Assembly (NCBI GenBank): GCA_022566355.1
Contig: JADFJB010000112.1
Span: 1-15,336 of the forward strand
DNA: 15,336 nt
Origin: a candidate division KSB1 bacterium
Lineage (GTDB): Bacteria > Zhuqueibacterota > JdFR-76 > DREG01
Reading direction: 5' to 3'
Within the stretch, counting starts at the first letter, position 1, and every line of letters begins with the position of its first letter. A model generated the notes under the pieces. That model saw only the letters and a list, made by a program, of their open reading frames with translations, made no database searches and was not told the DNA's origin. Below, in pieces: positions 1-14,784 of this stretch. The translations under genes and the position numbers were made by a program.

Positions 1-33
1 AAATATACAAAGGAAAAGACAATGTACTAGATG

Positions 34-68
34 AGGTTAAGCTTAAGGTTGAGGTTGAGGTTAAAATT
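34..68. repeat. GGTTAA-type hexamer array
   Basis: Degenerate 6-bp tandem units read as ggttaa, gcttaa, ggttga, ggttga, ggttaa. The same unit recurs in many other gaps of this window. Nothing coding is convincing in positions 1-201; the open frame there is made of repeat. Confidence 0.75.
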
Positions 69-136
69 AAATGTTAGTTGGATTAATAGAGATACTTGGG
101 TTTTTTGGGTGAAACAAGAAAAAGGAAAAGAAAATA

Positions 137-208
137 AGGTAAAAGTAAAAAGTAAAAATTTAGAACAAGGTATGAGGAAATCTACTTTTTACCTTTTACT
201 TTTAACTT
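137..208. repeat. Mirrored heptamer array (AGTAAAA / TTTTACT)
   Basis: The left arm (about 137-160) has repeated AGTAAAA-like heptamers. The right arm (about 183-208) has the complementary TTTTTAC/TTTTACT heptamers, separated by about 22 bp. The two arms could pair as a long imperfect hairpin just downstream of the wecB remnant, so it could act as a weak transcription end, but there is no classical GC stem. Confidence 0.6.
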
Positions 209-704
209 GCATAAAACCAGTTATCAATTATTCCCACAATCCGTTGACTTACATCTCCATCCCATAGTTCGGGATGCGCAGCTTTGGAAAAATTTTCACC
301 CATTATTTTATTCACTTCACTTTTTAAACTATCAATATCTTCCCCAATGATAGTATTTGTACCCATTTCAACTGTAACTGGTCTCTCAGTAATTTTACGC
401 AAGGTCAAGCAAGGCACATTAGATAAGTCGTTTCTTCCTGAATGCCACCTGAATCTGTAATTACTAATGAGGCTTTCCTCTGTAAAGCAAGAAAATCCAA
501 ATAACCAATAGGCTCTAAAAGATTCAGATTATGCGAATTACCACTATTAAAAAATCCATTTAATCGATGACGCGTTCTCGGATGAATGGGAAAAATCACA
601 GGTAATTCCTTTGATATATCCTGTAGCGATGCCATTAGATCCTTCAACTTTTGGGGGTTATCCACATTTGAGGGTCGATGCAAGGTCACCAAAATATAAG
701 GATT
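202..704 (-). pseudogene. wecB: UDP-GlcNAc 2-epimerase, C-terminal fragment, frameshifted
   Basis: This is the C-terminal part, roughly the last 165 of about 370 residues, of the non-hydrolysing UDP-N-acetylglucosamine 2-epimerase, which makes UDP-ManNAc for surface polysaccharides. Family signatures seen are VTLHRPSNVDN, the IHPRTR segment, ITDSGGIQEETTYL, then PCLTLRKITERP and VEMGTN. These lie in two frames: the first (692 down to 405) runs into a premature stop just after TTYL, and the second (417 down to 202) carries the rest. Adding one A in the cta-atgtgcc stretch near 420 restores YLNVPCLTLR, so a single-base deletion explains the break. Upstream, the homology (PYILVTLHRP) stops near 701 and runs directly into GGTTAA-type hexamers, so the N-terminal half is missing. 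It is a relic of the polysaccharide locus to which upxY and the tyrosine kinase belong. No start codon or ribosome binding site remains. Confidence 0.88.
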
Positions 705-790
705 GTTAAGGTTATAGTTATGGTTAAGGTTAAGAATGTTTATGAGAAAGGACGGTTGATGATGGACGAACGACGATGAGGGTGCCCCAT
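701..790. repeat. Composite spacer repeat, copy A (left part)
   Basis: Hexamers gttaag, gttata, gttatg, gttaag, gttaag (705-733) are followed by aatgttta and heptamer-like ggacggt, tgatgat, ggacgaa, cgacgat. This matches the left half of copies B-D (2058-2193, 3093-3240, 4199-4319). The right, pyrimidine-rich half is absent. It sits between the wecB remnant and the AbiEii-type gene. Confidence 0.65.
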
Positions 791-836
791 TCTGATCTCA
801 AAAATCCACCGCATCTGATGAGAATATTTCTGCTAT

Positions 837-1544
837 TTACCGCCATTCCTGAAAATTATAAATGATTTGTATATATTTCTTAATCGTTGATTCTAATTCC
901 ACCCATACTATAGGTTTTTTCATCATAGGTTTAAAATTATCTATTATCGCTTGTGCAAACTCTAATGTCTGTTCAATCTGATAAGCTGCGGCAGCGGGAT
1001 CATCTAATAATGCTTCTTTTTTACGGGCTTTTTTATAGCAATCCATAAATATTGCTTCCGAAAAATCCCAGGCTTCTTTTGAGATACAGTAGAAATCCAC
1101 CAAATCCTTAATCTCAAAACGACTGACCATCGTTGTCAGCTTATTTGAAGAAATATTGTCAATTGTATCAATATTAATTCTATTGCCTATTTTCAGGGTG
1201 ATATTATCTCTTTCACATTCTTCTGTTAGTGGATCAATGACAATATCCACTTTAATGTTTTTTATTAAATATGATAAAAACATTGGCGCTGATTGAACTA
1301 AACTTATCCCATCCTTATAGGTTCTTTTAAGAATTTGGTCCAGAATACCCAGATCTACATCATTCTTTGTAAAGAGATCTATATCTTCCGATGTACGATG
1401 GTGCAGGTAAAAAACGGAAAGCGCTGTACCACCTGTCAGAAAGAAATTCTCCTTGATTAATTGGATTCCTGCCAGTTCATGTAATAACTGTTGCTGTTCC
1501 AGGGATACATAGCAGCTGGGATCTTCTCTAATCAACATTTTCAT
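837..1544 (-). CDS. AbiEii/AbiGii-type nucleotidyltransferase toxin
   Basis: This 235-aa protein has the AbiEii-family nucleotidyltransferase core. GGTALSVFYLHHRTSEDIDLF at about residues 38-58 is the GGTAL plus DxD catalytic/metal-binding signature. A later stretch, NKLTTMVSRFEIKDLVDF at about 133-150, matches the conserved K...R..KD..D motif. Members of this family act as toxins in type IV toxin-antitoxin or abortive-infection pairs, transferring nucleotides to RNA or protein targets. The sequence does not show which target applies here. The ATG start overlaps the 3' end of the preceding small gene by 17 nt, the usual antitoxin-first, translationally coupled layout. The partner is not a recognisable AbiEi winged-helix antitoxin, so calling it a canonical AbiE system would be too strong. 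Catalytic residues look intact. The stop is followed by copy A of the spacer repeat. Confidence 0.85.
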   Translation of the reverse strand: MKMLIREDPSCYVSLEQQQLLHELAGIQLIKENFFLTGGTALSVFYLHHRTSEDIDLFTKNDVDLGILDQILKRTYKDGISLVQSAPMFLSYLIKNIKVDIVIDPLTEECERDNITLKIGNRINIDTIDNISSNKLTTMVSRFEIKDLVDFYCISKEAWDFSEAIFMDCYKKARKKEALLDDPAAAAYQIEQTLEFAQAIIDNFKPMMKKPIVWVELESTIKKYIQIIYNFQEWR

Positions 1545-1803
1545 AAACTTCTAACAACCGCCGCCATTTCCTATTTGCATATTTTGAGAGTCTGAGCGCC
1601 TCTAAACTATCATTTATTTCACGAAGATTAAAAAATAGTGCAACATCCCGCACTCTCCCCCGTTCGAGGAATCTCCCTAAAATCCAGTTAAGTGTCAGTG
1701 TATCGTTATTTCTCCGCGCCTTCTGCACTGCCAATCTAATGGTTTCGGCATTCTGGAAATTTGGATAGTCCCAAAAAACCGCTTTTAGGAAATTCTGTTT
1801 CAA
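1528..1803 (-). CDS. Small partner of the AbiEii-type toxin (putative antitoxin)
   Basis: A 91-aa protein directly upstream of, and overlapping, the AbiEii-type gene. Visible features are an N-terminal KAVFWDYP segment, then a helical, basic region with ILGRFLERGRVRDVALFF and a C-terminal SKYANRKWRRLLEVYE. FWD near the N-terminus followed by an RFLERG-like helix resembles the small DUF6922-type proteins often found beside nucleotidyltransferase toxins; this is from memory and not searched. The likely start is TTG at 1803, with GGGA about 6 nt upstream. No ATG is available in frame, although the frame stays open upstream to about 1873. Position and coupling suggest an antitoxin; direct function is inferred from context only. 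Confidence 0.65.
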   Translation of the reverse strand: MKQNFLKAVFWDYPNFQNAETIRLAVQKARRNNDTLTLNWILGRFLERGRVRDVALFFNLREINDSLEALRLSKYANRKWRRLLEVYENVD

Positions 1804-1805
1804 TC

Positions 1806-1961
1806 TTATTCCCGCATTAAACGATAAAATCCGGTATGTGCCACCGGGGTTTGCAATAAGTCCAATGGATGTTTTTTAGCAATAAGGAGGGTTTGAGTTG
1901 TCGGTAACCCAAGAATCCGCGCTTCAGCATTTCGATTCGAAAAAAAAGTATTGCGTTGCTA
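1806..1961 (-). other. Unrecognised coding-like fragment upstream of the antitoxin
   Basis: Between an in-frame TAG (1959-1961) and a TAA (1806-1808) the minus strand is open for 50 codons. It reads as a protein-like C-terminus with segments NRNAEARILGLPTTQTLLIA, KKHPLDLLQTPVAHTGF and YRLMRE. There is no good start codon, and the residue mix is typical of a soluble alpha/beta protein rather than of repeat translation. Its stop lies 2 nt before the TTG of the next gene, as in an operon. It may be the surviving end of a deleted gene or part of a dispersed element. I do not recognise the family. Confidence 0.3.
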
Positions 1962-1969
1962 TTCGCCAT

Positions 1970-2020
1970 CGCCTAGAAATTTCAAATGGCACTGCCAGCC
2001 AAAATGGGCTCTTCCAGGCG
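1970..2020. repeat. Palindromic element bounded by CGCCT / AGGCG
   Basis: The segment begins CGCCT and ends AGGCG, with internal GGCACTGCC and GCC...GGGC pairings, so it can fold back on itself. It is more GC-rich than the surrounding DNA and looks like a REP/MITE-type relic. Flanking TTTCAAAT (about 1980-1987) and ATTTGAAA (about 2044-2051) form another inverted pair around it. Confidence 0.35.
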
Positions 2021-2057
2021 TAGCATGCGAGATGCGAACTGCAATTTGAAAACTTGT

Positions 2058-2193
2058 CTAATGTTTATTGTGTGCTTTTATCGTCAATCGTCTTTTGGCT
2101 ATCGTCTGCTTGTGAGAGGACGATGGATGATGGGCGATCGCCGATGGGATTAATTACAGTCGTTAATGGTCTTTCGTCTATCATCTTCAGTCG
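2058..2193. repeat. Composite spacer repeat, copy B
   Basis: After aatgtttattg come TCGTC-type heptamers (atcgtca, atcgtct, atcgtct at about 2080-2107). Then come purine heptamers (gacgatg, gatgatg, ggcgatc, gccgatg at about 2119-2147), a centre attaattaca, and complementary heptamers (gtcgtta, atggtct, ttcgtct, atcatct). The two arms can pair into a long hairpin. The core matches copies C and D. Together with the fragment and palindrome at 1806-2020 it fills the 425-bp gap between the AbiEii cassette and the first HepT/MntA pair. Confidence 0.7.
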
Positions 2194-2231
2194 AAGGGTT
2201 TCCCGTCATTCATTCTATTTATTACTATTCA

Positions 2232-2651
2232 CTAAATGTTAAAATAATCCCCAACTTGCAGAATGTAACTTTCAATATCTTTTATTCCATATTGCCAGAC
2301 TTCATAAACAATATTTAAGTCAATTTCCTCATAATCATGAATAATTCGATTCCGAAAGCCAACCATTCGAACCAATTGCTCATTTAACTCCCTATTAATA
2401 ACTTCTCGTTCTTCCAATTTATAAAATACATCAGAAAAGCTACCCGGTGTGCCCCATCCCTCATCAGTGATTATATGCACTCCTATATCAATACACGCCT
2501 GAATAGCTAACTGAAGATTATGTAAAACCATATCTTGTAAATCTTGACTATTAAAGAACTTATTTTTTGAAGGTCTACCCAGGTTTTTTAGTCTTTCTAT
2601 TTTCGTAACTATATAGGATATTTTTCGTGCAAGGGTTTCTTGACTAACCAT
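2232..2651 (-). CDS. hepT: HepT-like HEPN RNase toxin (pair 1)
   Basis: A 139-aa all-helical DUF86/HepT protein. The RNase/AMPylation signature R-x4-H-x-Y is present as RNRIIHDY, with Arg100, His105 and Tyr107. The family also has LQLAIQACIDIGVHI at about 46-60, seen here. In characterised HepT/MntA systems (Shewanella, Aphanizomenon), HepT is an RNase and its motif tyrosine is AMPylated by MntA, which silences it. Length and motif are complete, so it should be active. Its ATG overlaps the mntA stop by 8 nt (ATGGTTAG), implying coupled translation. The gene ends next to spacer copy B. Confidence 0.9.
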   Translation of the reverse strand: MVSQETLARKISYIVTKIERLKNLGRPSKNKFFNSQDLQDMVLHNLQLAIQACIDIGVHIITDEGWGTPGSFSDVFYKLEEREVINRELNEQLVRMVGFRNRIIHDYEEIDLNIVYEVWQYGIKDIESYILQVGDYFNI

Positions 2652-3060
2652 GGCTAATCCCTTCTCTTAACTTTTTCATCATTCCCTTTCTCATTCTGAA
2701 CATCAAGGGTGAAAAATCAAGATAACCACAAATGCGACGCGTCTGATATTCAAGCCTCTTTACCGGGTCTCTTTGGTAAATAAGAAAACCAAGCCGAAAA
2801 ACTTCATAAACAAGCAATTCCCCTGCTCTATTTAAATTAATAACATCAAAATTCTTAGGTATTTTTCTTGATAACTCTTGAAAATATTTCATTTCTAAGT
2901 TGTAAAACAGCTCTGGTTTAATATTGGATGCAAATAAAATAGCCAAGTCAACATCACTATCCAATCGCGAACGATTCCTAGCATATGAACCAAAAAGGTA
3001 TACAGCGATCACTTCTGGTTGTTTAGAAAAATACTCTGTAATAGTTTGTTCAATGTTCAT
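2644..3060 (-). CDS. mntA: MntA-like minimal nucleotidyltransferase antitoxin (pair 1)
   Basis: A 138-aa MNT-fold protein. The motif GSx10DxD is intact: Gly24-Ser25, Asp36 and Asp38 in GSYARNRSRLDSDVDLAI, with the third acidic residue in FDVINL (Asp72). These residues bind Mg-ATP. In known pairs the enzyme transfers AMP to the tyrosine of the HepT motif. It is first in the two-gene unit and overlaps hepT by 8 nt. The basic C-terminal helix (RMRKGMMKKLREG) is typical of the subfamily. ATG start at 3060; no clear Shine-Dalgarno. Immediately upstream is spacer copy C. Confidence 0.9.
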   Translation of the reverse strand: MNIEQTITEYFSKQPEVIAVYLFGSYARNRSRLDSDVDLAILFASNIKPELFYNLEMKYFQELSRKIPKNFDVINLNRAGELLVYEVFRLGFLIYQRDPVKRLEYQTRRICGYLDFSPLMFRMRKGMMKKLREGISHG

Positions 3061-3092
3061 TGAATAATGAAAAATAAAAAATACTATACTTG

Positions 3093-3240
3093 ATTAAGGT
3101 TTAGATTTAGATTGAGGTCAAGGTTTAGCTTTAGGTTGGAATGTTTATTTGAAGGACGATCGACGATAGGGTTAATTACAATCGTCAATGGTCTGTCGTC
3201 TTTAGTCGCTTTGGTTTACTTTTGTCTTTTGTCTTTTCTT
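3093..3240. repeat. Composite spacer repeat, copy C
   Basis: Three parts in order. First, hexamers gattaa, ggttta, gattta, gattga, ggtcaa, ggttta, gcttta, ggttgg (3093-3139). Second, a heptamer palindrome with arm gacgatcgacgat, centre aattaca and complementary arm atcgtcaatggtctgtcgtc. Third, a pyrimidine tract gctttggtttacttttgtctttt. It aligns nearly base for base with copy D from aatgtt onward (about 95 bp, roughly 80% identical by eye). Confidence 0.8.
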
Positions 3241-3274
3241 TTCACGTCTTTGTGGTTAATTGGGTTTGTTTAGT

Positions 3275-3737
3275 TTAGTTATTTTGGTTTATTGGGTTAT
3301 TTTGATTCTCTCGCTCAAACCCTTTTGATATTAAGTATTGGTCAATCACATTGATGATTCGTTCTGCAGCTTTTAATGCATGTTCAGCGGTACTTTCCCC
3401 ATAAAATTGATGGGGATAACCACTAACTAATCCATTTTGGATATCGAGATGGTATATAATGTAAATCTAATTCTCTAGCATCATCAAGAAATCCCTGTAA
3501 TTCAGGAATAACTTTTATCGTTAATTTCATCAACTCAAAGACAGAATGGGTTAATAATTTCTTGCGAGAGATTACTGAAAAATAAACTAAAGATTTTAGT
3601 GCTTTTTCTGAAGCTTGTTGTGAAAGAAAACAAACCGTATTAAAAAACTCTCCTTTCAGGTTCCATTGTACTGCTTTTAAATCATAAAACGCCTGATTCA
3701 TCCAATTTTCAGCCTCCTGACCCCTTCCTTTATTCAT
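3275..3737 (-). pseudogene. HEPN-domain protein, frameshifted near C-terminus (pair 2)
   Basis: A HEPN-domain protein of the minimal type paired with MNT genes. The N-terminal part reads AENWMNQAFYDLKA, then FLSQQASEKALKSLVYF, LLTHSVFELMKL and ARELDLHYIPSRYP, all typical of the family. The frame then hits a stop at 3423. In the next frame the missing end follows: PNGLVSGYPHQFYG, then STAEHALKAAERIINVID, to a TAA at 3275. Removing one A from the aaaa run (plus-strand tttt, 3435-3438) restores one continuous protein of about 153 residues. ATG at 3737 is preferred over the upstream in-frame start at 3761, because it gives the 8-nt overlap (ATGAATAA) with the MNT stop seen in the other pairs. The last nine residues (QNNPINQNN) come from a simple repeat. 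A homopolymer sequencing error is possible; otherwise the gene is broken. Confidence 0.82.
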
Positions 3738-4041
3738 AAATAACCACTCCCTCTTCTGCAATCATTTCCGCAAACGCATTACCTCCTTGCAGCATATCTT
3801 CATACTCTCCAGGAGTATAAACTAAAATGTCTATCGCCCGATCAATTTGTAGAATCTTAATTACATTGCGTATTCGATCAAAAAAGGATTCATGAGTTTC
3901 CTTAATAACTACAAGATCGATATCACTAACATCATCGACTTCATTTCTTGCATAGGAGCCAAACAGATATACTTTTTCTGGGTCATAATACGCTATCCTT
4001 TCTTTAATTTGACGGATAACTTTGTAGCGGAGTGGAAACAT
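3730..4041 (-). CDS. Minimal nucleotidyltransferase (MNT) partner (pair 2)
   Basis: A 103-aa minimal nucleotidyltransferase. YLFGSYARNEVDDVSDIDLV carries the intact GSx10DxD motif (Ser29, Asp40, Asp42), and the third acidic residue is in AIDILVYTP (Asp71). It is shorter than the MntA proteins of pairs 1 and 3 and belongs to the compact MNT class that pairs with HEPN proteins lacking the RxxxxHxY motif. It is first in its two-gene unit and overlaps the HEPN start by 8 nt. If the HEPN partner is truly broken, this would be an orphan. ATG start at 4041, immediately preceded by hexamer repeat; no Shine-Dalgarno seen. Confidence 0.88.
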   Translation of the reverse strand: MFPLRYKVIRQIKERIAYYDPEKVYLFGSYARNEVDDVSDIDLVVIKETHESFFDRIRNVIKILQIDRAIDILVYTPGEYEDMLQGGNAFAEMIAEEGVVIYE

Positions 4042-4072
4042 AGACTAAGATAAGGTTAGGTTTAAGGTTGTA
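4042..4072. repeat. Hexamer array abutting the MNT start
   Basis: gactaagataaggttaggtttaaggttg: GGTTAA-like units starting directly at the ATG of the MNT gene (minus strand reads aaccttaaacctaacc upstream of the start). The 4073-4198 stretch beyond it is AT-rich, would have to hold the promoter for pair 2, and shows no motif I can call. Confidence 0.6.
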
Positions 4073-4198
4073 ATAAGAGTTTGTTGGGTTAACCAAATAA
4101 CATGATTTTGTAAGGATTTATTTTCTTTAACTATTCTACAATTAAAGGGATATAAACATTGGTGCTCATACCATTGAGTAAATTGAGTTAATCAATAA

Positions 4199-4319
4199 GG
4201 CTAAGGTTTAGGTTAAGGTTAAGAAATGTTAATGATAGAGGACGATATATGATGGGGGTTAAATACAATTTTCAATAGTCTTTTGTCTTTAGCCACTTTG
4301 GTTTAATTTTGTCTTTTGA
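4199..4319. repeat. Composite spacer repeat, copy D
   Basis: Hexamers ggctaa, ggttta, ggttaa, ggttaa (4199-4222) are followed by aatgttaatgatagaggacgat and centre ggttaaatacaa. The complement-type arm is tcaatagtcttttgtctttag, then the tract ccactttggtttaattttgtcttttg. It is closely similar to copy C. The palindrome arms are more diverged than in B and C. Confidence 0.8.
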
Positions 4320-4341
4320 TATCTCACCTCTGCCGCTTGTT

Positions 4342-4383
4342 CTGAGCTCCGTCGAAGGGCCTGTCCTGAGCTCCGTCGAAGGG
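4342..4383. repeat. Tandem CTGAGCTCCGTCGAAGGG repeat (REP-like)
   Basis: Two exact copies of ctgagctccgtcgaaggg (4342-4359 and 4366-4383), 24 bp apart. The reverse complement, CCCTTCGACGGAGCTCAG, resembles the CCCTTCGACAAGCTCAG-type dispersed repeats common in environmental bacterial genomes. It abuts the stop of the third HepT gene, whose last codons (KRET) lie in the neighbouring ctcacgtctcacg repeat. Confidence 0.65.
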
Positions 4384-4385
4384 TC

Positions 4386-4817
4386 TCACGTCTCACGTTT
4401 ATCTGCTTTAACATACTTATATATTGTAGAATAATAATCCTCAAAATCTTTTAAATGTCTTGTGAGGATTGATTTTAGAATCTCCACATTTATTTGTTGA
4501 TAATCGTGGACAGCAATGTTTCGAAACCCGACCATACGAGACATTTTTTCAGCCAGGTCTTTTTCAATTATTCTATTTTTTTGCAAAATTTGGAAGGACT
4601 CTTTATATGTTATTGGTAGTTTTAAACCCTTCTCAGCGATGATAGAATTAGATGCATCTATGCAAGCTTGGACTGCCCTTTGAATATTCAAAACGAAAAC
4701 ATCTTGAATAAAAATGTCATCTAAATTTTGTGGATCTAATTTTGTAACTTGTTCGATGGTTTTTAGACAATTTTTTATGATTGAAATCTTGGAGTAAATA
4801 ACATCCTTGTTAAGCAT
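4386..4817 (-). CDS. hepT: HepT-like HEPN RNase toxin (pair 3)
   Basis: A second HepT. From the ATG at 4817 it is 143 aa. An upstream in-frame start at 4829 is possible, but 4817 gives the same 8-nt overlap with mntA (ATGCTTAA) as pairs 1 and 2. The motif R-x4-H-x-Y is intact as RNIAVHDY (Arg99, His104, Tyr106). NIQRAVQACIDASNSIIAEK at about 44-63 matches the equivalent helix of the pair 1 HepT. The two HepTs share order and motif but differ clearly in sequence, so pair 3 is not a recent duplicate of pair 1. Predicted role: ribonuclease toxin silenced by AMPylation of the tyrosine. Confidence 0.9.
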   Translation of the reverse strand: MLNKDVIYSKISIIKNCLKTIEQVTKLDPQNLDDIFIQDVFVLNIQRAVQACIDASNSIIAEKGLKLPITYKESFQILQKNRIIEKDLAEKMSRMVGFRNIAVHDYQQINVEILKSILTRHLKDFEDYYSTIYKYVKADKRET

Positions 4818-5181
4818 AGATCCTGCCATTCAGTAAATGATCTTCAATTATTTTACGACTCATTTTGAAGTCAGGATACTGGCTCAGAGCTTTCGTCTTA
4901 AATTCAATCAGGTGACGAGGGTTGTTATTAACGATCAATTCACCCTTTGCTAAAATCTGCATAGTGATAATAATATCGCTATTGTTTAATAGTACAACAT
5001 CTATATTTCTAATAAAGTTCTTATTTAGATCTGACATAAATTCCCATTGTTCGTGTATATTGGGGGGAGTTCGCTTCAAATAAACTGCTACATCAATATC
5101 ACTTTTTTCTGTAAAACGATCTGAAACAATTGAACCGTATAAATAGGCAAATTCAGCTTTCTTGTTGAGCAATTGCTTCAA
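4810..5181 (-). CDS. mntA: MntA-like nucleotidyltransferase antitoxin (pair 3), start uncertain
   Basis: MNT protein with the motif GSIVSDRFTEKSDIDVAV: Ser17, Asp28 and Asp30 complete GSx10DxD, and NIDVVLLN supplies Asp61. The C-terminus, HLIEFKTKALSQYPDF, is characteristic of the MntA subfamily. The start is unclear. TTG at 5181 gives 123 aa with only about 15 residues before the motif. The frame stays open upstream, reading LIIKEDKTKIVKR, a plausible MNT N-terminal helix. No ATG or GTG is found there before the frame enters hexamer repeat near 5236. The N-terminus may therefore begin at a non-standard codon or have been replaced by repeat DNA. Otherwise it is predicted to AMPylate the downstream HepT. 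Confidence 0.85.
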   Translation of the reverse strand: MKQLLNKKAEFAYLYGSIVSDRFTEKSDIDVAVYLKRTPPNIHEQWEFMSDLNKNFIRNIDVVLLNNSDIIITMQILAKGELIVNNNPRHLIEFKTKALSQYPDFKMSRKIIEDHLLNGRIYA

Positions 5182-5228
5182 ACGTTTAACGATTTTTGTT
5201 TTATCTTCTTTTATTATAAGACCTTGAA

Positions 5229-5328
5229 TACAGGTTAAGGTTTTTTCTTTTTTCTTAGTTATAGTTAATCTTAACCTTAATCGTCTTGTGGTTTATTAAT
5301 CTTAACCTAAACCTAAATCTCAATCTAT
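5229..5328. repeat. Hexamer repeats, both orientations
   Basis: A short GGTTAAGG block (5236-5243) is followed by complementary-orientation units ttaatc, ttaacc, ttaatc, ttaacc, taaacc, taaatc, tcaatc (5265-5325). The gap separates upxY from the last toxin-antitoxin pair. It lacks the heptamer palindrome core of copies A-D except for an isolated atcgtcttgtggttta. Confidence 0.65.
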
Positions 5329-5334
5329 CTCATA

Positions 5335-5883
5335 TCAATCAATTTTTCTCAGCAGTCCCGGGTCTATTTCCACTGCGATGGATTGTCGAATTGCATCTAT
5401 AGTAATAACAAACCTGCGGGCATTCCTAATCTCTACCAATTTCCCCTGCACTCCCATTAACGGACCATGTGTAACCTTTACCCGGTCGCCTTTAACCAGG
5501 TAATCCTGGGGCTCGAACTTATATCCTTCCTTTAGAAAACGTTTTATGGTATCAATTTGGTCATCCGGAATGATTGAAAGCTTACCGCCAAAGCTTACCA
5601 TTCGAACGACTCCGTCTATCTGCAAAGAGCCAATCCGATCGTTTGAAGTCGTATGAACAAACACATAGCTTCGAAACAAGGGCTCTTCCACTTTCTTTTT
5701 ACGATCGCTCCACTGCCGGATAACTGTCTGCACAGGCAGGTAAGATTCAATCTCCCTGCGATGCAACTCCACTTCCACTTTTTTTTCAAACCGCGGACGT
5801 GTGTAGAGGGCATACCAGTTTAGTTTATCAACCAAAGGTGGGTTATTAAGGTTGCTTGGATTATTGTGATTTGTTGGGTTCAT
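5335..5883 (-). CDS. NusG-paralog transcription antiterminator, UpxY/RfaH-like
   Basis: A 182-aa NusG-family protein. The NGN domain starts at NWYALYTRPRFEKKVE (about residues 21-36) and includes SYLPVQ and PLFRSYVFVH. A C-terminal KOW domain reads VKGDRVKVTHGPLMGVQGKL (about 129-148). UpxY/RfaH-type paralogs bind RNA polymerase and suppress premature termination in long polysaccharide operons. Core NusG sits in the secE-nusG-rplK cluster, which is not here, so a specialised role is likely. Neighbours support this: a Wzc-type kinase upstream and a wecB relic downstream on the same strand. The first 17 residues (NPTNHNNPSNLNNPP) are low complexity and encoded by the same kind of simple repeat as the gaps; the conserved domain begins after them. 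ATG at 5883 is the only start seen; no Shine-Dalgarno. Confidence 0.9.
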   Translation of the reverse strand: MNPTNHNNPSNLNNPPLVDKLNWYALYTRPRFEKKVEVELHRREIESYLPVQTVIRQWSDRKKKVEEPLFRSYVFVHTTSNDRIGSLQIDGVVRMVSFGGKLSIIPDDQIDTIKRFLKEGYKFEPQDYLVKGDRVKVTHGPLMGVQGKLVEIRNARRFVITIDAIRQSIAVEIDPGLLRKID

Positions 5884-5970
5884 TGGTGTGGCTGGAGTTA
5901 ACTAAAAAAAAAGAAAATTCTGAAATATTTAAATTAATTTTGATTTTTGATTGGATGAGAACTCAATAAG

Positions 5971-6076
5971 GCTAAGATTAAGATTCAGCTCATAAGTTTT
6001 TCAGATTAATTTGTCTTTTATTCCAACCTCAATCAACTTTTTCTTAACCTTAACCTGAACCTAAATCTAAATCTTG
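5971..6076. repeat. Hexamer-flanked module, copy 1
   Basis: gctaagattaagattcagct, then cataagtttttcagattaat, ttgtcttttattcc and aacctcaatcaa (5971-6036), followed by hexamers ttaacc, ttaacc, tgaacc, taaatc, taaatc to 6073. The same module recurs at 6482-6543 and 6784-6850. The purine-rich left side and pyrimidine-rich right side are roughly complementary. Its right end lies 4 bp from the stop of the four-helix-bundle gene. Confidence 0.65.
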
Positions 6077-6079
6077 TGT

Positions 6080-6443
6080 TTAAATTTGGGATTTGAAAGT
6101 CTTTAGAATTGTGTTTATTTCCTTATGAATTCTGGCCAATAATTTTTCTATTTCAGTGACTTGATTGCAGGAAAAATAACTAACTCGTATTCCATATTCC
6201 AAATGGTTCATGGTTTCTAAAAGGGAACCTCGTGAAATAGAATAGAACTGCATTTTTTCACCGATTGAATTACGACCAAATCCCTTCGGCTATATTTGCA
6301 GAAATACTAAGGGCAGATCTTCTAATCTGGGATGTTAATCCATAGTCTTCGTTTCTGGGTAGATCTTTAGTCAAATAAAATATCTTCTCTGAGACTTCCA
6401 TGACTAATTGCCATACTGGCATTTCCTTGAATGATTTATGCAT
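6080..6443 (-). pseudogene. Four-helix-bundle protein (23S IVS-encoded family), frameshifted
   Basis: The first frame begins MHKSFKEMPVWQLVMEVSEK, continues with YLTKDLPRNEDYGLTSQIRR and reaches SALSISANIAEG. This is the hallmark N-terminus of the about 120-aa four-helix-bundle family found in 23S rRNA intervening sequences and scattered through genomes. It then reads a TAA six bases later. In the next frame the rest is intact: FGRNSIGEKMQFYSISRGSL, then ETMNHLEYGIRVSYFSC and EIEKLLARIHKEINTILK, to TAA at 6080. One extra base in gccgaaggg (plus strand 6281-6290) accounts for the break; the partial copy at 6858-6942 has gccgaggg and is in frame. A strong Shine-Dalgarno precedes the ATG. The function of the family is unknown. 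Confidence 0.87.
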
Positions 6444-6448
6444 ACTCC

Positions 6449-6455
6449 CCTCCTT
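6449..6455 (-). promoter_or_regulatory. Strong Shine-Dalgarno (AAGGAGG) of the four-helix-bundle gene
   Basis: The minus strand reads AAGGAGG, 5 nt of spacer, then ATG at 6443. It fixes the start of the frameshifted gene. It stands out because the large genes in this window (ftsK, lolA, the tyrosine kinase) show no comparable site. Confidence 0.8.
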
Positions 6456-6460
6456 AAGAT

Positions 6461-6543
6461 TCAGGCTGAGGATAAGGTTGAGGTTAAGATTAAGATTTTA
6501 GCTCATAAATTTATAGATAGATTTTTTTTATCTCCTCAATCAA
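6461..6543. repeat. Hexamer-flanked module, copy 2
   Basis: gattcaggctgaggataagg and hexamers lead into ggttaagattaagattttag, then ctcataaatttatagataga, tttttttta and tctcctcaatcaa. It shares the left flank gattcaggctga with copy 3 (6772) and the core with copies 1 and 3. It lies just upstream of the four-helix-bundle gene's Shine-Dalgarno. Confidence 0.65.
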
Positions 6544-6559
6544 TTCTTTTCTTATCATT

Positions 6560-6740
6560 TACATTATCCTAAACCTTAAGCTCAATCTCAGTCTTTAACC
6601 TCAATATATTATTTTCTTAACCTCGACCTTAAACTTAACCTCAACCTCAATCTTTTTTACTTAACCTTAACCTTATTTTTAACACAGCTCCGCCACATCA
6701 GTCCCAAAATTTAGATTAAGATTGAGGTTAAGGTTAAGAC
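6560..6740. repeat. Dense hexamer field
   Basis: Runs of taaacc, ttaagc, tcaatc, tcagtc, ttaacc, tcaacc (about 6568-6676) in the C-rich orientation, a short unique stretch cacagctccgccacatcagt (6680-6699), then the opposite orientation agattaagattgaggttaag (about 6713-6740). The opposed orientations can pair. No gene is seen in 6444-6857 or 6943-7119. Confidence 0.65.
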
Positions 6741-6771
6741 TTTTTATTTCTTTTATCCCAACCTCTTTGAG

Positions 6772-6850
6772 ATTCAGGCTGAAGCTAAGATTTAAGATTC
6801 AGCTCATAAGTTTTTTAGATTGATTTTCTTTTATCTCCACCTCAATCTAA
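6772..6850. repeat. Hexamer-flanked module, copy 3
   Basis: gattcaggctga, then gctaagatttaagattcagc, tcataagttttttagattga, ttttcttttatctcc and acctcaatctaa. Nearly the same as copy 1 (5971-6036). It abuts the truncated duplicate of the four-helix-bundle gene at 6858. Confidence 0.65.
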
Positions 6851-6857
6851 ACAATTA

Positions 6858-6942
6858 TCATGGTTTCAAAAACTGAACCTCGTGAAATAGAATAGAACTG
6901 CATTTTTTCACCGATTGAATTACGACCAAATCCCTCGGCTAT
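6858..6942 (-). pseudogene. Internal fragment duplicated from the four-helix-bundle gene
   Basis: An 85-bp block nearly identical to 6208-6292 of the frameshifted gene. The differences are a few bases near 6868-6873 and the absence of one base in gccgaggg. It encodes AEGFGRNSIGEKMQFYSISRG in one frame, with repeat DNA on both sides, so it has no ends of its own and cannot be a gene. It preserves the unbroken reading frame that the longer copy has lost. Confidence 0.85.
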
Positions 6943-6949
6943 CACAGCC

Positions 6950-7033
6950 TCTTAACCTTAAACTCAACCTTAACCTTATTTTTAACCTCAATTAATTTTT
7001 TTTAAACCTTAGCCTTATCCTTACCTCAACTTA
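6950..7033. repeat. Hexamer array, C-rich orientation
   Basis: Units cttaac, cttaaa, ctcaac, cttaac, cttatt, then ttaaacc, cttagc, cttatc, cttacc, tcaacttaag. It ends about 85 bp from the stop codon of the tyrosine kinase gene. No terminator hairpin of classical form is evident there. Confidence 0.65.
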
Positions 7034-7119: not shown

Positions 7120-9462
7120 TTAAACATCAGCTTTATGAGATTGCTTCCGATGCTTCCTTCTATGTTTTCCGCCTTTCCGGCTCTTCTTTTCACCTGAATC
7201 TCCATAGTAGTAATAATAGTAGTAATAGTAGTAATAAGATCCGTACATATTGGACGCTGAAACGTCATTCAGCAATACTCCCAAAGCTCTTCCCCGCACA
7301 TTTTGTAATAACTCAAATGTTCGCAATGCAGCATCCCGGTCCGTTTTACCCGACCTTAAAACAACAACCACGCCATCCACCAAGGGCGCTAAAACCAATG
7401 CATCCGTCACGGCAATCATTGGCGGACTATCGAAGAGAACATATTCAAATTCTTGTTTGATCTCCTGCAAAAATTCCCGCATGCGTTTCGATCCAATCAT
7501 CTCGGAAGGGTTGGGTGGTAAAATGCCTGTAGTGATCATGTGAAGGTTCTCAATTTCCGTTACTTTAACGATACTTGTTAACGGTTCATTACCGACGAGA
7601 TAGTTAGTTAAACCAACTTCACGGGAAAGGTTGAACAAATTGTGCAATACCGGCCTGCGTAAGTCAGTATCCACCAATATAACTTTAGAGCCCATCTGTG
7701 CCAATGCAATTGCGAGGTTGGCAACAGAGGTGGATTTACCCTCTCCGGGTCCCGGACTGGAGACCAAAATAGTACGGGCAGGATCGTCAGTTTTAGAGTA
7801 CTGCAGTTGTGTTCGTAATGCCCGGTAAGCCTCGGAAATGGGTGATTTCGGCTTCAAATGAGTGATTAATCGCTCGGCTATTTTTCCTTCTTCGACTTTC
7901 TTATCATTCTTGGATTGAAATTGCTTGATAAAAAGAGGTTTCCATTTGCCATTTGTTAATTCCGGTTTAATTTCGGGGATTGAACCCAGCAAGGGTAGTT
8001 TTAAGCGCTCAACATTCTCTATAGTACGTATTGAATTATCCATGTATTCAATCAGGAAGGTAATTCCAATACCCAACCCAAGCCCTATTAAGGCTCCTAA
8101 TAATAAATTCCGATTAGTTTTGGGAGAAATTGGATTTCCGGAAGGAACTGCCCCATCCACCATTCGGATCTTACCGATCTGACCCGCACGAGTAATCCTG
8201 GTTTCCTCATACTTTTCTTTCATCATGAGATAGATGTTCTCATTCAATCTACGTGATCGTTCGAGTCGCGCCAATTGTAATGTTTTTTCCGGTAATTCCT
8301 CAAGTTTGCTGTCGAAATCATCGACAATTTTTTTCAATGCGGCTGCACGGGCTCCAAATGCACTAATCTCAATCTCAGAAGTGATTATAGCTTCCACAAG
8401 TCCCTGGTTACGTTGTAATGGATCGCCGACAGGAATCTTTGCCAATAGTAATTTCTTCGTTTCATCTGCCAATGATTTTTTTAGTCCTTCTAAGTTTTTC
8501 TTTTCTTTCTCGACCTGAGGGAAATTATCAGGCACACCCTGGATTTTATAAGTTGCCAGGTTTGCTTCTATCGAGGCAATTCTCGATCGATATTCAATAA
8601 TTTTTGGATGAGTAATATCTGCAAGGTCGGCTACTAAACTTTGCTTTAGTTCCCCCAACCTGGATTTCAAGCCTGCTAATCTTGTAGAATTCGTGCTGAT
8701 TTCGATCTGCGCTTCCCGATAGGCGCTTTCAAAAGTGACCAATTGGTTGACGATTAAAGCTGCATCCCCAGTTAAGGAAACAGATCCCGATTCTTGTTGA
8801 AATTCCTTAAACGCTTCCTCCGAATATTTTAATTCCTTTTCTATCTTTTCCAATTGATCATCAAGGAAATCTACCACTTGAGTTATTTCTTGCCGGTTGG
8901 TGGTTTGATCTAATTCTTTATACACTTCAGCCACAGAATTTGCCAGATAAGCTGCTTCCCAACCTGATGAGGCTTTCATTTTAATCTGGATGATATCGGT
9001 ATCCCGGATGATCGAAACATCCATGCTTCTCATAATCTGGCCAATACCGGGTTTATTGGGAATCGCTTCCTCTCCTGAGAGATTGTAATTTGCAGCTCGG
9101 AGAGAATCATATTCGGTTGAATTGGATAAATAATCAACGACCTTAATGGCCAGGTATCTGCTTTTCAGGATTTGTAATTGATTATTTAACCGGGTCATCT
9201 GCTGGCCGAAGGGTGAAACAGAAAATAATGTTCTCTCTAATCCGCCGGATTGAACTACGATGACTTTGCATGAAGATTCATATATTGGAGGGGTCGTAAA
9301 CGAAAAATAAGCGGTTGCTGCAAAAACCGATATAAATGAAAAGACTATGATCCAGCGGCCGCGATATAGAATTCGCAGGTAATCCGTAATTCGAACTGGC
9401 TGTTCATCAAATTGACTATTCCATGTGTCTTGCAAATTCAAATTCCTTTTTGAATATGACAT
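7120..9462 (-). CDS. wzc: Wzc-type polysaccharide co-polymerase / bacterial tyrosine kinase
   Basis: A 780-aa inner-membrane protein of exopolysaccharide or capsule export. In order: a Wzz-type N-terminus with one membrane segment (about 34-52); a long periplasmic coiled coil (about 190-430) with the GNVR-like region near LERSRRLNENIYLMMKEKYE; a second membrane segment (LLLGALIGLGLGIGITFLIE, about 450-470); then the cytoplasmic BY-kinase. Kinase motifs are Walker A (SSPGPGEGKST, about 566-576), Walker A' (VILVDTDLRRP, about 592-602) and Walker B (YVLFDSPP, about 673-680). The family controls chain length and export by cycling autophosphorylation of a C-terminal tyrosine cluster. Here that cluster is an unbroken run of eleven Tyr (about 743-753), plus one in MYGS, followed by a strongly basic tail (KKSRKGGKHRRKHRK). 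All motifs are intact. ATG at 9462, no Shine-Dalgarno. Confidence 0.93.
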   Translation of the reverse strand: MSYSKRNLNLQDTWNSQFDEQPVRITDYLRILYRGRWIIVFSFISVFAATAYFSFTTPPIYESSCKVIVVQSGGLERTLFSVSPFGQQMTRLNNQLQILKSRYLAIKVVDYLSNSTEYDSLRAANYNLSGEEAIPNKPGIGQIMRSMDVSIIRDTDIIQIKMKASSGWEAAYLANSVAEVYKELDQTTNRQEITQVVDFLDDQLEKIEKELKYSEEAFKEFQQESGSVSLTGDAALIVNQLVTFESAYREAQIEISTNSTRLAGLKSRLGELKQSLVADLADITHPKIIEYRSRIASIEANLATYKIQGVPDNFPQVEKEKKNLEGLKKSLADETKKLLLAKIPVGDPLQRNQGLVEAIITSEIEISAFGARAAALKKIVDDFDSKLEELPEKTLQLARLERSRRLNENIYLMMKEKYEETRITRAGQIGKIRMVDGAVPSGNPISPKTNRNLLLGALIGLGLGIGITFLIEYMDNSIRTIENVERLKLPLLGSIPEIKPELTNGKWKPLFIKQFQSKNDKKVEEGKIAERLITHLKPKSPISEAYRALRTQLQYSKTDDPARTILVSSPGPGEGKSTSVANLAIALAQMGSKVILVDTDLRRPVLHNLFNLSREVGLTNYLVGNEPLTSIVKVTEIENLHMITTGILPPNPSEMIGSKRMREFLQEIKQEFEYVLFDSPPMIAVTDALVLAPLVDGVVVVLRSGKTDRDAALRTFELLQNVRGRALGVLLNDVSASNMYGSYYYYYYYYYYYGDSGEKKSRKGGKHRRKHRKQSHKADV
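7204..7236 (-). repeat. TAT/TAC codon microsatellite encoding eleven tyrosines
   Basis: Eleven consecutive tyrosine codons. On the coding strand they run TAT TAC TAC, TAT TAC TAC, TAT, TAT TAC TAC, TAT, so a 9-bp unit (TATTACTAC) occurs three times. Such an array can change copy number by slippage in steps that keep the frame. Confidence 0.85.
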
Positions 9463-11193: not shown

Positions 11194-11332
11194 ATTATTA
11201 TTAGGATAAGGTATTTGAAATTAGTTTGTATCAATGCTTTTAATGTTTTATTCAAAATATTGATTTTAGTTTCTTATTTATTGGTTTAATTAAAGAATAT
11301 TTGTTATTGGGTTTGGTATTTCAGGGCGGTAT

Positions 11333-11402
11333 ACCTTACTCCTAATACCTAATACCTAATACCTGATACCTTATACCTGACACCTTATTCCTTATATCTT
11401 AT
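11333..11402. repeat. Heptamer array (ACCTAAT-type), about 10 units
   Basis: Ten consecutive 7-bp units: accttac, tcctaat, acctaat, acctaat, acctgat, accttat, acctgac, accttat, tccttat, atcttat. It ends next to the stop of the degenerate small gene at 11404. The rest of the gap from 11194 is AT-rich upstream sequence of lolA with no clear promoter. Confidence 0.85.
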
Positions 11403-11403
11403 A

Positions 11404-11606
11404 TTATCGTTTAATAATTTCAGAAGTTTTTCGGTGTCCATTTATTATAAACAGGCTCTTCATAAATTTATTTTTTCTTCAAGTAATTGAAATCTTTCTT
11501 GAACAGACAAAGAATTTAAAAATTCCAACTCAAATTCAATTTCTAATTGTTCATCATGTTCCGTTAGTTTTAATATTTTGGTTTTTTTCATTGTTTTTTT
11601 GAGCAT
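11404..11606 (-). pseudogene. Small acidic protein, about 65 aa, frameshifted; family not named
   Basis: From ATG at 11606 (alternative ATG at 11591) the frame reads KKTKILKLTEHDEQLEIEFE, then LEFLNSLSVQERFQLLEEK, to a TGA at 11460. In another frame directly after it follow KFMKSLFIINGHRKTSEIIK and R, to TAA at 11404. The layout (charged N-terminus, SLSVQERF helix, C-terminal GHRKTSEIIKR) reads as one small protein split by an indel in the gaagaaaaaataaa run around 11468-11480. Small proteins of this shape often precede nucleotidyltransferase toxins; this is recollection, not a search. No such toxin follows here. An alternative is a complete 48-aa protein ending at 11460. Confidence 0.55.
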
Positions 11607-11608
11607 TT

Positions 11609-11702
11609 TGGGTATAGGGTATAGGATATGAGGTTTGCCGTATGAGGTATGAAGTATGGGATTTGGGTCCTCATTCTCTCATTCCTCATTCCTCATTCTC
11701 CT
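11609..11702. repeat. Mirrored heptamer array (GGGTATA/GTATGAG ... CTCATTC)
   Basis: The left side has gggtata, gggtata, ggatatg, aggtttg, ccgtatg, aggtatg, aagtatg, ggatttg. The right side has tcctcat, tctcat, tcctcat, tcctcat, tctcc, which can pair with the left side using some G-T pairs. The right side runs into the 3' end of the four-helix-bundle pseudogene and encodes its last residues (RMRNEE). Confidence 0.75.
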
Positions 11703-12110
11703 TTTCACAAAGTTGATATAACCATTTAAAGTTTTTCGTGCCGTATCTTCTGAAGTCAATCCTTCATTAAATAAACTTTCCCCAATATACTTCAAATCCA
11801 GACAAGTAATCAAATGATCTTTGAGTTCGTTCATTGATCCTCTTGAAATCATATAAAATCTAATTGTATCTTTATAATGAAATCTACCATAACCTTCAGC
11901 AATATTGGCTGTACAACTCACAGCAGCTTTTCTTATTTGGTTATTCAAATTATACTTTTCTTCAACTGGAAACATACTAATATACTAATATTTTATTATG
12001 AAAGAACAGTTTCAATTCCCTTGCTTTATTCCAGGCGCTGCTAAAGAGGCAAATTCTTTTTGTTCTTCATAATCTGGAAGAGGCTCCCTCACCTCGAGTT
12101 TATCAAAAGA
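11679..12110 (-). pseudogene. Second four-helix-bundle protein, multiply disrupted
   Basis: The C-terminal 97 residues are open from ATG at 11975. They read FPVEEKYNLNNQIRKAAVSC, then TANIAEGYGRFHYKDTIRFY and MISRGSMNELKDHLITCLDL, the core of the IVS-type four-helix-bundle family. A normal member has about 25-30 more N-terminal residues. These are found upstream in pieces: WNKARELKLFFHNK in another frame (12033 to about 11992) and SFDKLEV (12110-12090). Joining SFDKLEV directly to WNKARELKLF requires removing 56 bp (12034-12089), and a further indel at the atattagt duplication near 11976-11991. It sits between ftsK and lolA and interrupts that usual neighbourhood. The truncated 98-aa ORF might still be translated. 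Confidence 0.65.
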
Positions 12111-14686: not shown

Positions 14687-14784
14687 ATCTGGTATCCGGC
14701 ATCTGGCATCTGGTATCTGGTATCTGGTATCTGGTATCTGGTATCTGGTATCTGGTATCTGGTATCTGGTATCTGGCATCTGGC
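14687..14784. repeat. Heptamer tandem array, 14 units of ATCTGGT
   Basis: Exactly 98 bp of consecutive 7-bp units: atctggt, atccggc, atctggc, nine atctggt, then two atctggc. It is the most uniform array in the window. It occupies most of the gap between the stop of gcvT (14810) and the start of ftsK (14646), so any shared transcript must run through it. Confidence 0.95.

Follow-up and report, generated by a model that had tools for sequence, protein, structure and literature searches.

Toxin-antitoxin gene spacers and inverted short-word arrays at intervening-sequence protein genes in a candidate division KSB1 bacterium

The locus and its spacers

A 15,336-nucleotide stretch of DNA from a candidate division KSB1 bacterium (contig JADFJB010000112.1 of assembly GCA_022566355.1, here called the window) carries toxin-antitoxin (TA) genes of several families separated by related spacers that consist of short tandem words. 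From the sequence alone, these genes had been read as modules that enter or replace one another at a spacer common to them. Our analysis points instead to genes of the 23S rRNA intervening-sequence protein (IVP), a four-helix-bundle family that occurs in the window and is flanked across several phyla by inverted arrays of such words. The window is the entire contig C112 of a 4.62-Mb genome (213 contigs, 98.5% complete), and its features are listed in Table 1. Its backbone is a polysaccharide and cell-division neighborhood with a wecB fragment, an UpxY-type antiterminator, a BY-type kinase (wzc), a lolA-like gene, ftsK and gcvT, the names wzc, lolA, ftsK and gcvT being taken from translations rather than from a family search. 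Near its C-terminus the kinase contains a run of tyrosine codons (YYYYYYYYYYY, 7204-7237) that TRF calls as a tandem repeat.

All TA cassettes lie on the minus strand, and each is followed by a spacer. The family names given by the sequence-only reading (AbiEii, HepT/MntA twice and HEPN/MNT) were confirmed by profile matches, and the TA genes are typical of these families. Both HepT/MntA pairs score above 60, the NCBIfam equivalog cut-off for NF047751 and NF047752, and consist of adjacent, overlapping open reading frames (ORFs). Their translations contain the HepT motif RX4HXY (RNRIIHDY and RNIAVHDY) and the MntA motif GSX10DXD (GSYARNRSRLDSDVD and GSIVSDRFTEKSDID); a scan of the genome collection for MntA returned distant relatives only. 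The partner ORF of AbiEii (1528-1803) has no family match, and the HEPN gene (3423-3737) has a frameshift within a run of A, where an assembly error is possible; its C-terminal part runs on to about 3301. Tandem duplication of a single TA pair, already doubted in the earlier reading, is rejected since the families differ.

That the four gaps A to D are related to one another while the gene families between them differ was borne out by self-BLAST (E-values of 4e-21 for C-D, 1e-7 for A-D and 1e-8 for B-C), and the reported alignment of C with D extends over 201 bp at 70% identity. All four spacers share one orientation. The composite runs from GGTTAA hexamers over an AATGTTTATGA link, GACGAT heptamers, GGTTAATTACAA and ATCGTC heptamers to a TTTTGTC tract. 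The idea of one shared element per gap holds only in part: the spacers are partial copies of this composite, because the second half is missing from A and the GGTTAA hexamers from B. Likewise, what had been taken for a GACGAT palindrome consists of a short run of heptamers and, after it, the reverse complement of that run. It folds better than shuffled sequences in B (z -2.7) and in C, where z is -1.8 on the plus and -2.6 on the minus strand, with no such advantage in D and A. Ordinary terminators were rejected as an identity of the spacers: the window has 5 terminator-like sites versus 4.2 in shuffles, and none of them is within A-D. An Rfam scan of the window gave no RNA match and no rRNA family. 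A 24-mer tandem pair with an CTGAGCTCCGTCGAAGGGC core lies at 4335-4382 and a related piece at 2187-2207; it resembles a widespread intergenic repeat.

The order upxY-wzc-lolA-ftsK-gcvT is retained in the genome G002 and reversed in G005, where one additional gene separates ftsK from gcvT. The content between wecB and upxY, in the window the AbiEii, HepT/MntA, HEPN/MNT and HepT/MntA genes, consists of different genes in G002. Since this content differs while the surrounding order is kept, the TA genes lie in a variable interval within a conserved frame. The wecB fragment at its edge is truncated and frameshifted (frames 202-417 and 405-692) and ends near tract A; the G002 homologue is intact and encodes 412 amino acids.

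Table 1. Features of the window (positions of the whole stretch; an empty strand cell means that no strand is given).
Feature	Position	Strand	Basis or remark
GGTTAA-type hexamer tract outside TA genes	29..78	+	tract search
wecB (UDP-GlcNAc 2-epimerase) 3' fragment, edge of variable interval	202..692	-	Epimerase_2, profile 185-346, two frames
Spacer A: GGTTAA hexamers and GACGAT heptamers	705..790	+	80% to D over 60 bp
AbiEii nucleotidyltransferase (type IV TA toxin family)	837..1544	-	PF08843 6.5e-15
Spacer B: ATCGTC/GACGAT/ATCGTC heptamers, without GGTTAA hexamers	2078..2193	+	85% to C over 52 bp
HepT/MntA pair 1 (type VII TA)	2232..3060	-	NF047751 127.8 bits, NF047752 81.3 bits
Spacer C: hexamers, GACGAT/ATCGTC hairpin, TTTTGTC tract	3092..3240	+	70% to D over 201 bp
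HEPN (frameshifted) and minimal nucleotidyltransferase (MNT) pair	3301..4041	-	PF05168 1.9e-18, PF01909 6.5e-11
Hexamer tract	~4053-4070		tract search
Spacer D	4196..4318	+	self-BLAST match to C and A
HepT/MntA pair 2 (type VII TA)	4386..5181	-	NF047751 143.5 bits, NF047752 84.4 bits
Inverted (TTAACC) hexamer tract, fifth tract	5265..5327	-	inverted relative to A-D; 72% to 5997-6074
Inverted hexamer tracts, one side of IVP pseudogene	5968..6081
IVP four-helix-bundle pseudogene (PF05635)	6113..6428	-	two frames
Inverted hexamer tracts, other side of IVP pseudogene	6457..6742		6457-6497, 6567-6680, 6706-6742
Second IVP fragment	6793..6945	-	86 bp at 95% to 6208-6293
Inverted TTAACC tract adjoining wzc	6950..7030	-
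Heptamer array (TATACCT) in ~1-kb lolA-ftsK insertion	11326..11407	-
Second IVP four-helix gene, within lolA-ftsK insertion	11679..11975	-	TIGR02436 3.9e-23
Solo heptamer array (ATCTGGT)14, ftsK-gcvT spacer	14687..14783	-

Inverted word arrays at IVP genes

The window holds 12 arrays of period 6 or 7 in 15 kb, compared with at most 4 at any other sampled locus, and 5 of the 8 occurrences of GGTTAAGGTTAAG in 4.6 Mb fall on this contig. GGTTAA-type hexamers are not limited to the TA gaps: they also surround upxY and a broken IVP gene and reach as far as wzc. Blocks that contain hexamers are repeated at 5242, 5971, 6449 and 6762, and local duplications span positions 1-7033. A piece of the IVP pseudogene is repeated at 95% identity (6208-6293 and 6858-6942), marking the second IVP fragment as a recent local duplication. 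The inverted arms of the pseudogene are partly decayed. Its best match is the IVP of G005:C52 (55-57%), which by synteny occupies the same wzc-upxY interval and is intact there, with GGTTAAGGTTAAG on its left and TTAACCTTAACC on its right, that is, with GGTTAA/TTAACC ends. Neither an IVP gene nor a tract is present in this gap in G001 and G002. Given these shared ends and the closeness of the pseudogene to the G005 gene, the words of the zone would most simply be old IVP cassette ends that have since been rearranged. Such descent is inferred, the words themselves being too short for proof.

The second IVP gene of the window lies with heptamer arrays in about 1 kb between lolA and ftsK, where ORF coordinates leave only 26 bp in G002 and 18 bp in G005. 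Between the inverted TATACCT/GGTATAG arrays of this insertion there is also a possible short ORF (11411-11612; inverted score 13, shuffle maximum 11).

Beyond the window, 700-bp flanks were compared between 73 IVP genes, taken from this genome and from relatives, and 337 control ORFs. An inverted-flank score of at least 17 was reached by 41% of the IVP genes versus 2.4% of the controls (p 8e-17), a contrast that is slightly understated as the control set contains one IVP gene. The flanks pair specifically with their own partner: 32 of the 73 loci scored at least 15, compared with a mean of 1.6 and a maximum of 8 upon permutation. Matched inverted flanks at IVP genes were also found in genomes of Nitrospira, Anaerolineae/Chloroflexota and Bacillota. 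The arrays sit about 60 bases from the gene and consist of 6-9-mers whose word depends on the locus (AAACGGC, ACTGGAT, GTGATGAG, AATATCC, GGGTGACA and others). With a score cut of 14.5, chosen after the distribution had been seen, matched inverted arms are present at 43 of 88 IVP loci, and in 39 of these 43 the 5' arm is purine-rich (mean 0.66 versus 0.53 for upstream controls).

Among the 43 armed loci, word similarity increases with the identity of the IVP proteins, from 0.20 below 30% to 0.47 above 60% identity (r 0.33, a value that none of 2000 permutations reached). Pairs whose outer flanks are homologous do not enter this comparison. The loci share descent and the pairs are non-independent, so that this p-value is a guide only. 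For example, the IVP proteins of G006:C206 and G012:C105 are 79% identical and both loci use AAAATGCAAA words; a Nitrospira locus and G002:C30 share GAGGACTGAG words at 70% protein identity. As a separate observation, two Chloroflexota genomes (L251 and L264) carry the same-locus IVP with 95% protein identity and the word GGATGAG in different copy numbers.

Two species of one genus provide three empty/occupied pairs; such pairwise comparison does not separate gain from loss. The distances between aligned flanks are 597, 691 and 1013 bp in the occupied and 66, 40 and 37 bp in the respective empty sites. The empty sites are devoid of arms and the adjoining genes are unchanged. These three pairs show insertion polymorphism at a conserved site, as expected of a transposable element. 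None of the ORFs in the three inserts compared was recognized as a transposase, and the flanks of these inserts are too diverged to read a target-site duplication. An IS200-like (Y1_Tnp) transposase gene with 25-bp inverted repeat flanks was noted elsewhere (G000:C34, L078 9606-10166) and is a candidate trans-acting enzyme.

Array statistics cover about 0.69 Mb of the genome, and the 25 gene-less arrays found therein all lack an inverted partner (scores up to 12). Their words are shared more with the IVP arms of this genome than with arms from other genomes, a difference reached in 0 of 2000 samplings. In G005:C52, a GxxExxY gene (PDDEXK_3, PF13366; L125 17243-17638) lies between inverted 9-mer repeats, so similar ends are possible at other small accessory genes. 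In G002, small uncharacterized ORFs (L124 6025-6345 and L133 649-933) lie between inverted 7-mer tracts.

Origin of the spacers

We consider it somewhat more probable than the reverse that the spacers are decayed, locally duplicated short-word arrays of the kind that in inverted pairs end IVP cassettes, and that the TA pairs are lodged in a variable stretch of such DNA. Matched inverted arrays would be the functional ends of an inserted cassette that carries the IVP four-helix gene and enters intergenic spacers; the IVP protein or a trans-acting enzyme would recognize them as ends, and the cassette would move as DNA or RNA. The broken cassette between upxY and wzc, whose counterpart is present in G005 and absent from G001 and G002, bears the same word as the spacers and could have been their source. 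Slippage would lengthen and shorten the arrays, and local recombination would spread and rearrange the words across the zone from the wecB fragment to wzc, duplicating IVP pieces as well as C and D. The TA spacers would in this way derive from an IVP cassette, with the TA pairs as passengers or independent arrivals, and direct spacer copies around them would permit their loss by recombination. More tentatively, and with less than even confidence, IVP genes in general could be widespread mobile cassettes whose inverted word-array ends, purine-rich in the 5' arm, co-evolve with the protein and seed the intergenic heptamer arrays of many bacterial genomes, the TA spacers being one local outgrowth.

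Several points weigh against this explanation. Clear arms are present at only 43 of the 88 IVP genes. Since the words are of low complexity, homology between spacers and IVP arms is weak by sequence, the best direct match reaching 72% over 85 bp (tract 5242-5326), and the heptamer part of C and D was not seen at the IVP. The spacers around AbiE, HepT/MntA-1 and HEPN/MNT are direct rather than inverted repeats. Mobility is deduced from comparison: no movement was observed, no target-site duplication is readable, the cassette contains no transposase, and loss of the IVP gene in G001 and G002 is indistinguishable from gain.

Among the alternatives, a function of the arms in RNA fares best, although we regard it as rather unlikely. 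The transcript would form a long stem around the IVP ORF that is kept for processing or silencing rather than mobility. The purine polarity relative to the gene would agree with this, as would rRNA intervening sequences (IVS), which encode the same protein family and whose terminal inverted repeats form a 28-bp stem cut by RNase III (PMC4990558). An RNA role alone leaves insertion into spacers of protein genes and the words common to gene-less arrays unexplained. It is nevertheless compatible with the inverted ends, may belong to the same biology and does not exclude the cassette explanation.

Plain slippage is unlikely, too. Short-word arrays would arise in any relaxed intergenic DNA, a space that TA and IVP genes merely share. 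Numerous solo heptamer arrays have no gene, and slippage is proposed for over-represented bacterial heptameric repeats (PMC4692102, PMC4679880). Slippage does not account for the inversion of the same word between the two sides of one gene family, the tracking of protein identity by the word and the fixed purine polarity.

Capture or exchange of TA cassettes at a common spacer through homologous recombination appears improbable to us. AbiE, HepT/MntA-1 and HEPN/MNT are each flanked by direct spacer copies (scores of 18.5, 32 and 32), HepT/MntA-2 is bracketed by inverted copies (D and the tract at 5265-5327; inverted score 18, shuffle maximum 12), and the wecB-upxY content varies between genera. 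On the other hand, the C/D core, searched for in the genome and 20 relatives, occurs on this contig only and in 0 of the 20 relatives, and a genome-wide mobile spacer was rejected for this reason. HepT loci elsewhere in the phylum lack matched flanks (0 of 25 at a score of at least 15 versus 3% of controls, p 0.76), and eight MNT-type loci elsewhere in the genome are without tracts, so that TA genes are not generally bracketed by them. The hexamers also surround the non-TA gene upxY and the IVP pseudogene. What survives of the modular reading is the variability of the interval, seen against G002, and a class of repeat tied to gene insertion; the spacer as an exchange site for TA genes is not supported. 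A chromosomal integron with attC-like spacers behind same-strand cassettes is next to excluded: integron arrays are frequently rich in TA genes and the minus-strand arrangement would suit them, but no integrase (IntI) exceeds the cut-off in this 98.5% complete genome (best 78.5 versus 265 bits) and the spacers are tandem words confined to one place.

The cassette explanation accounts for different TA genes sharing a spacer without a TA-specific exchange system. The case for a TA-exchange system is weak; the finding merits pursuit because it points to IVP cassettes whose inverted word arrays are cognate.

Relation to known systems

That bacteria have heptameric tandem arrays has been known for decades, to our knowledge without agreement on their origin, and we know of no function for the IVP/S23 protein family. 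Matched inverted word arrays that follow the IVP protein would join both puzzles and make them testable. Among the closest known systems are the rRNA IVS with S23p of Leptospira and Coxiella, which have inverted ends and are suspected to be mobile (PMC4990558). As in the IVS, an IVP/S23p ORF (PF05635/TIGR02436) is present, and both systems combine a small PF05635 gene within terminal inverted repeats with a sporadic distribution and suspected mobility. Unlike the IVS, which are inserted in a helix of 23S rRNA, the loci examined for synteny lie in spacers between protein genes, with no rRNA match in the window, and at their ends stand tandem arrays of words of 6-9 bases, specific to each locus, instead of one near-perfect stem.

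Heptameric repeats are over-represented in bacteria, among them the short tandem repeats of cyanobacteria and Xanthomonas (PMC4692102) and the TAACTGA repeats of Beggiatoaceae (PMC4679880). These share intergenic 6-9-mer arrays and genome-specific words with the arrays described here. The passages considered place such arrays upstream of genes or between them and make no link to IVP genes or inverted pairs. In a few searches of the open-licence literature, no paper was found that links heptameric arrays with IVP genes or describes IVP genes with inverted tandem arrays. We take as a lead only the resemblance of the IVP family to Avd, an accessory protein of diversity-generating retroelements (PMC10053308).

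Compared with type VII HepT/MntA systems, both pairs of the window are regular by the equivalog cut-offs, and only their setting is unusual. REPIN/RAYT elements are small non-autonomous palindromic repeats that are mobilized in trans. They contain no gene, whereas the word of the arrays described here varies by locus and tracks the IVP gene that it encloses.

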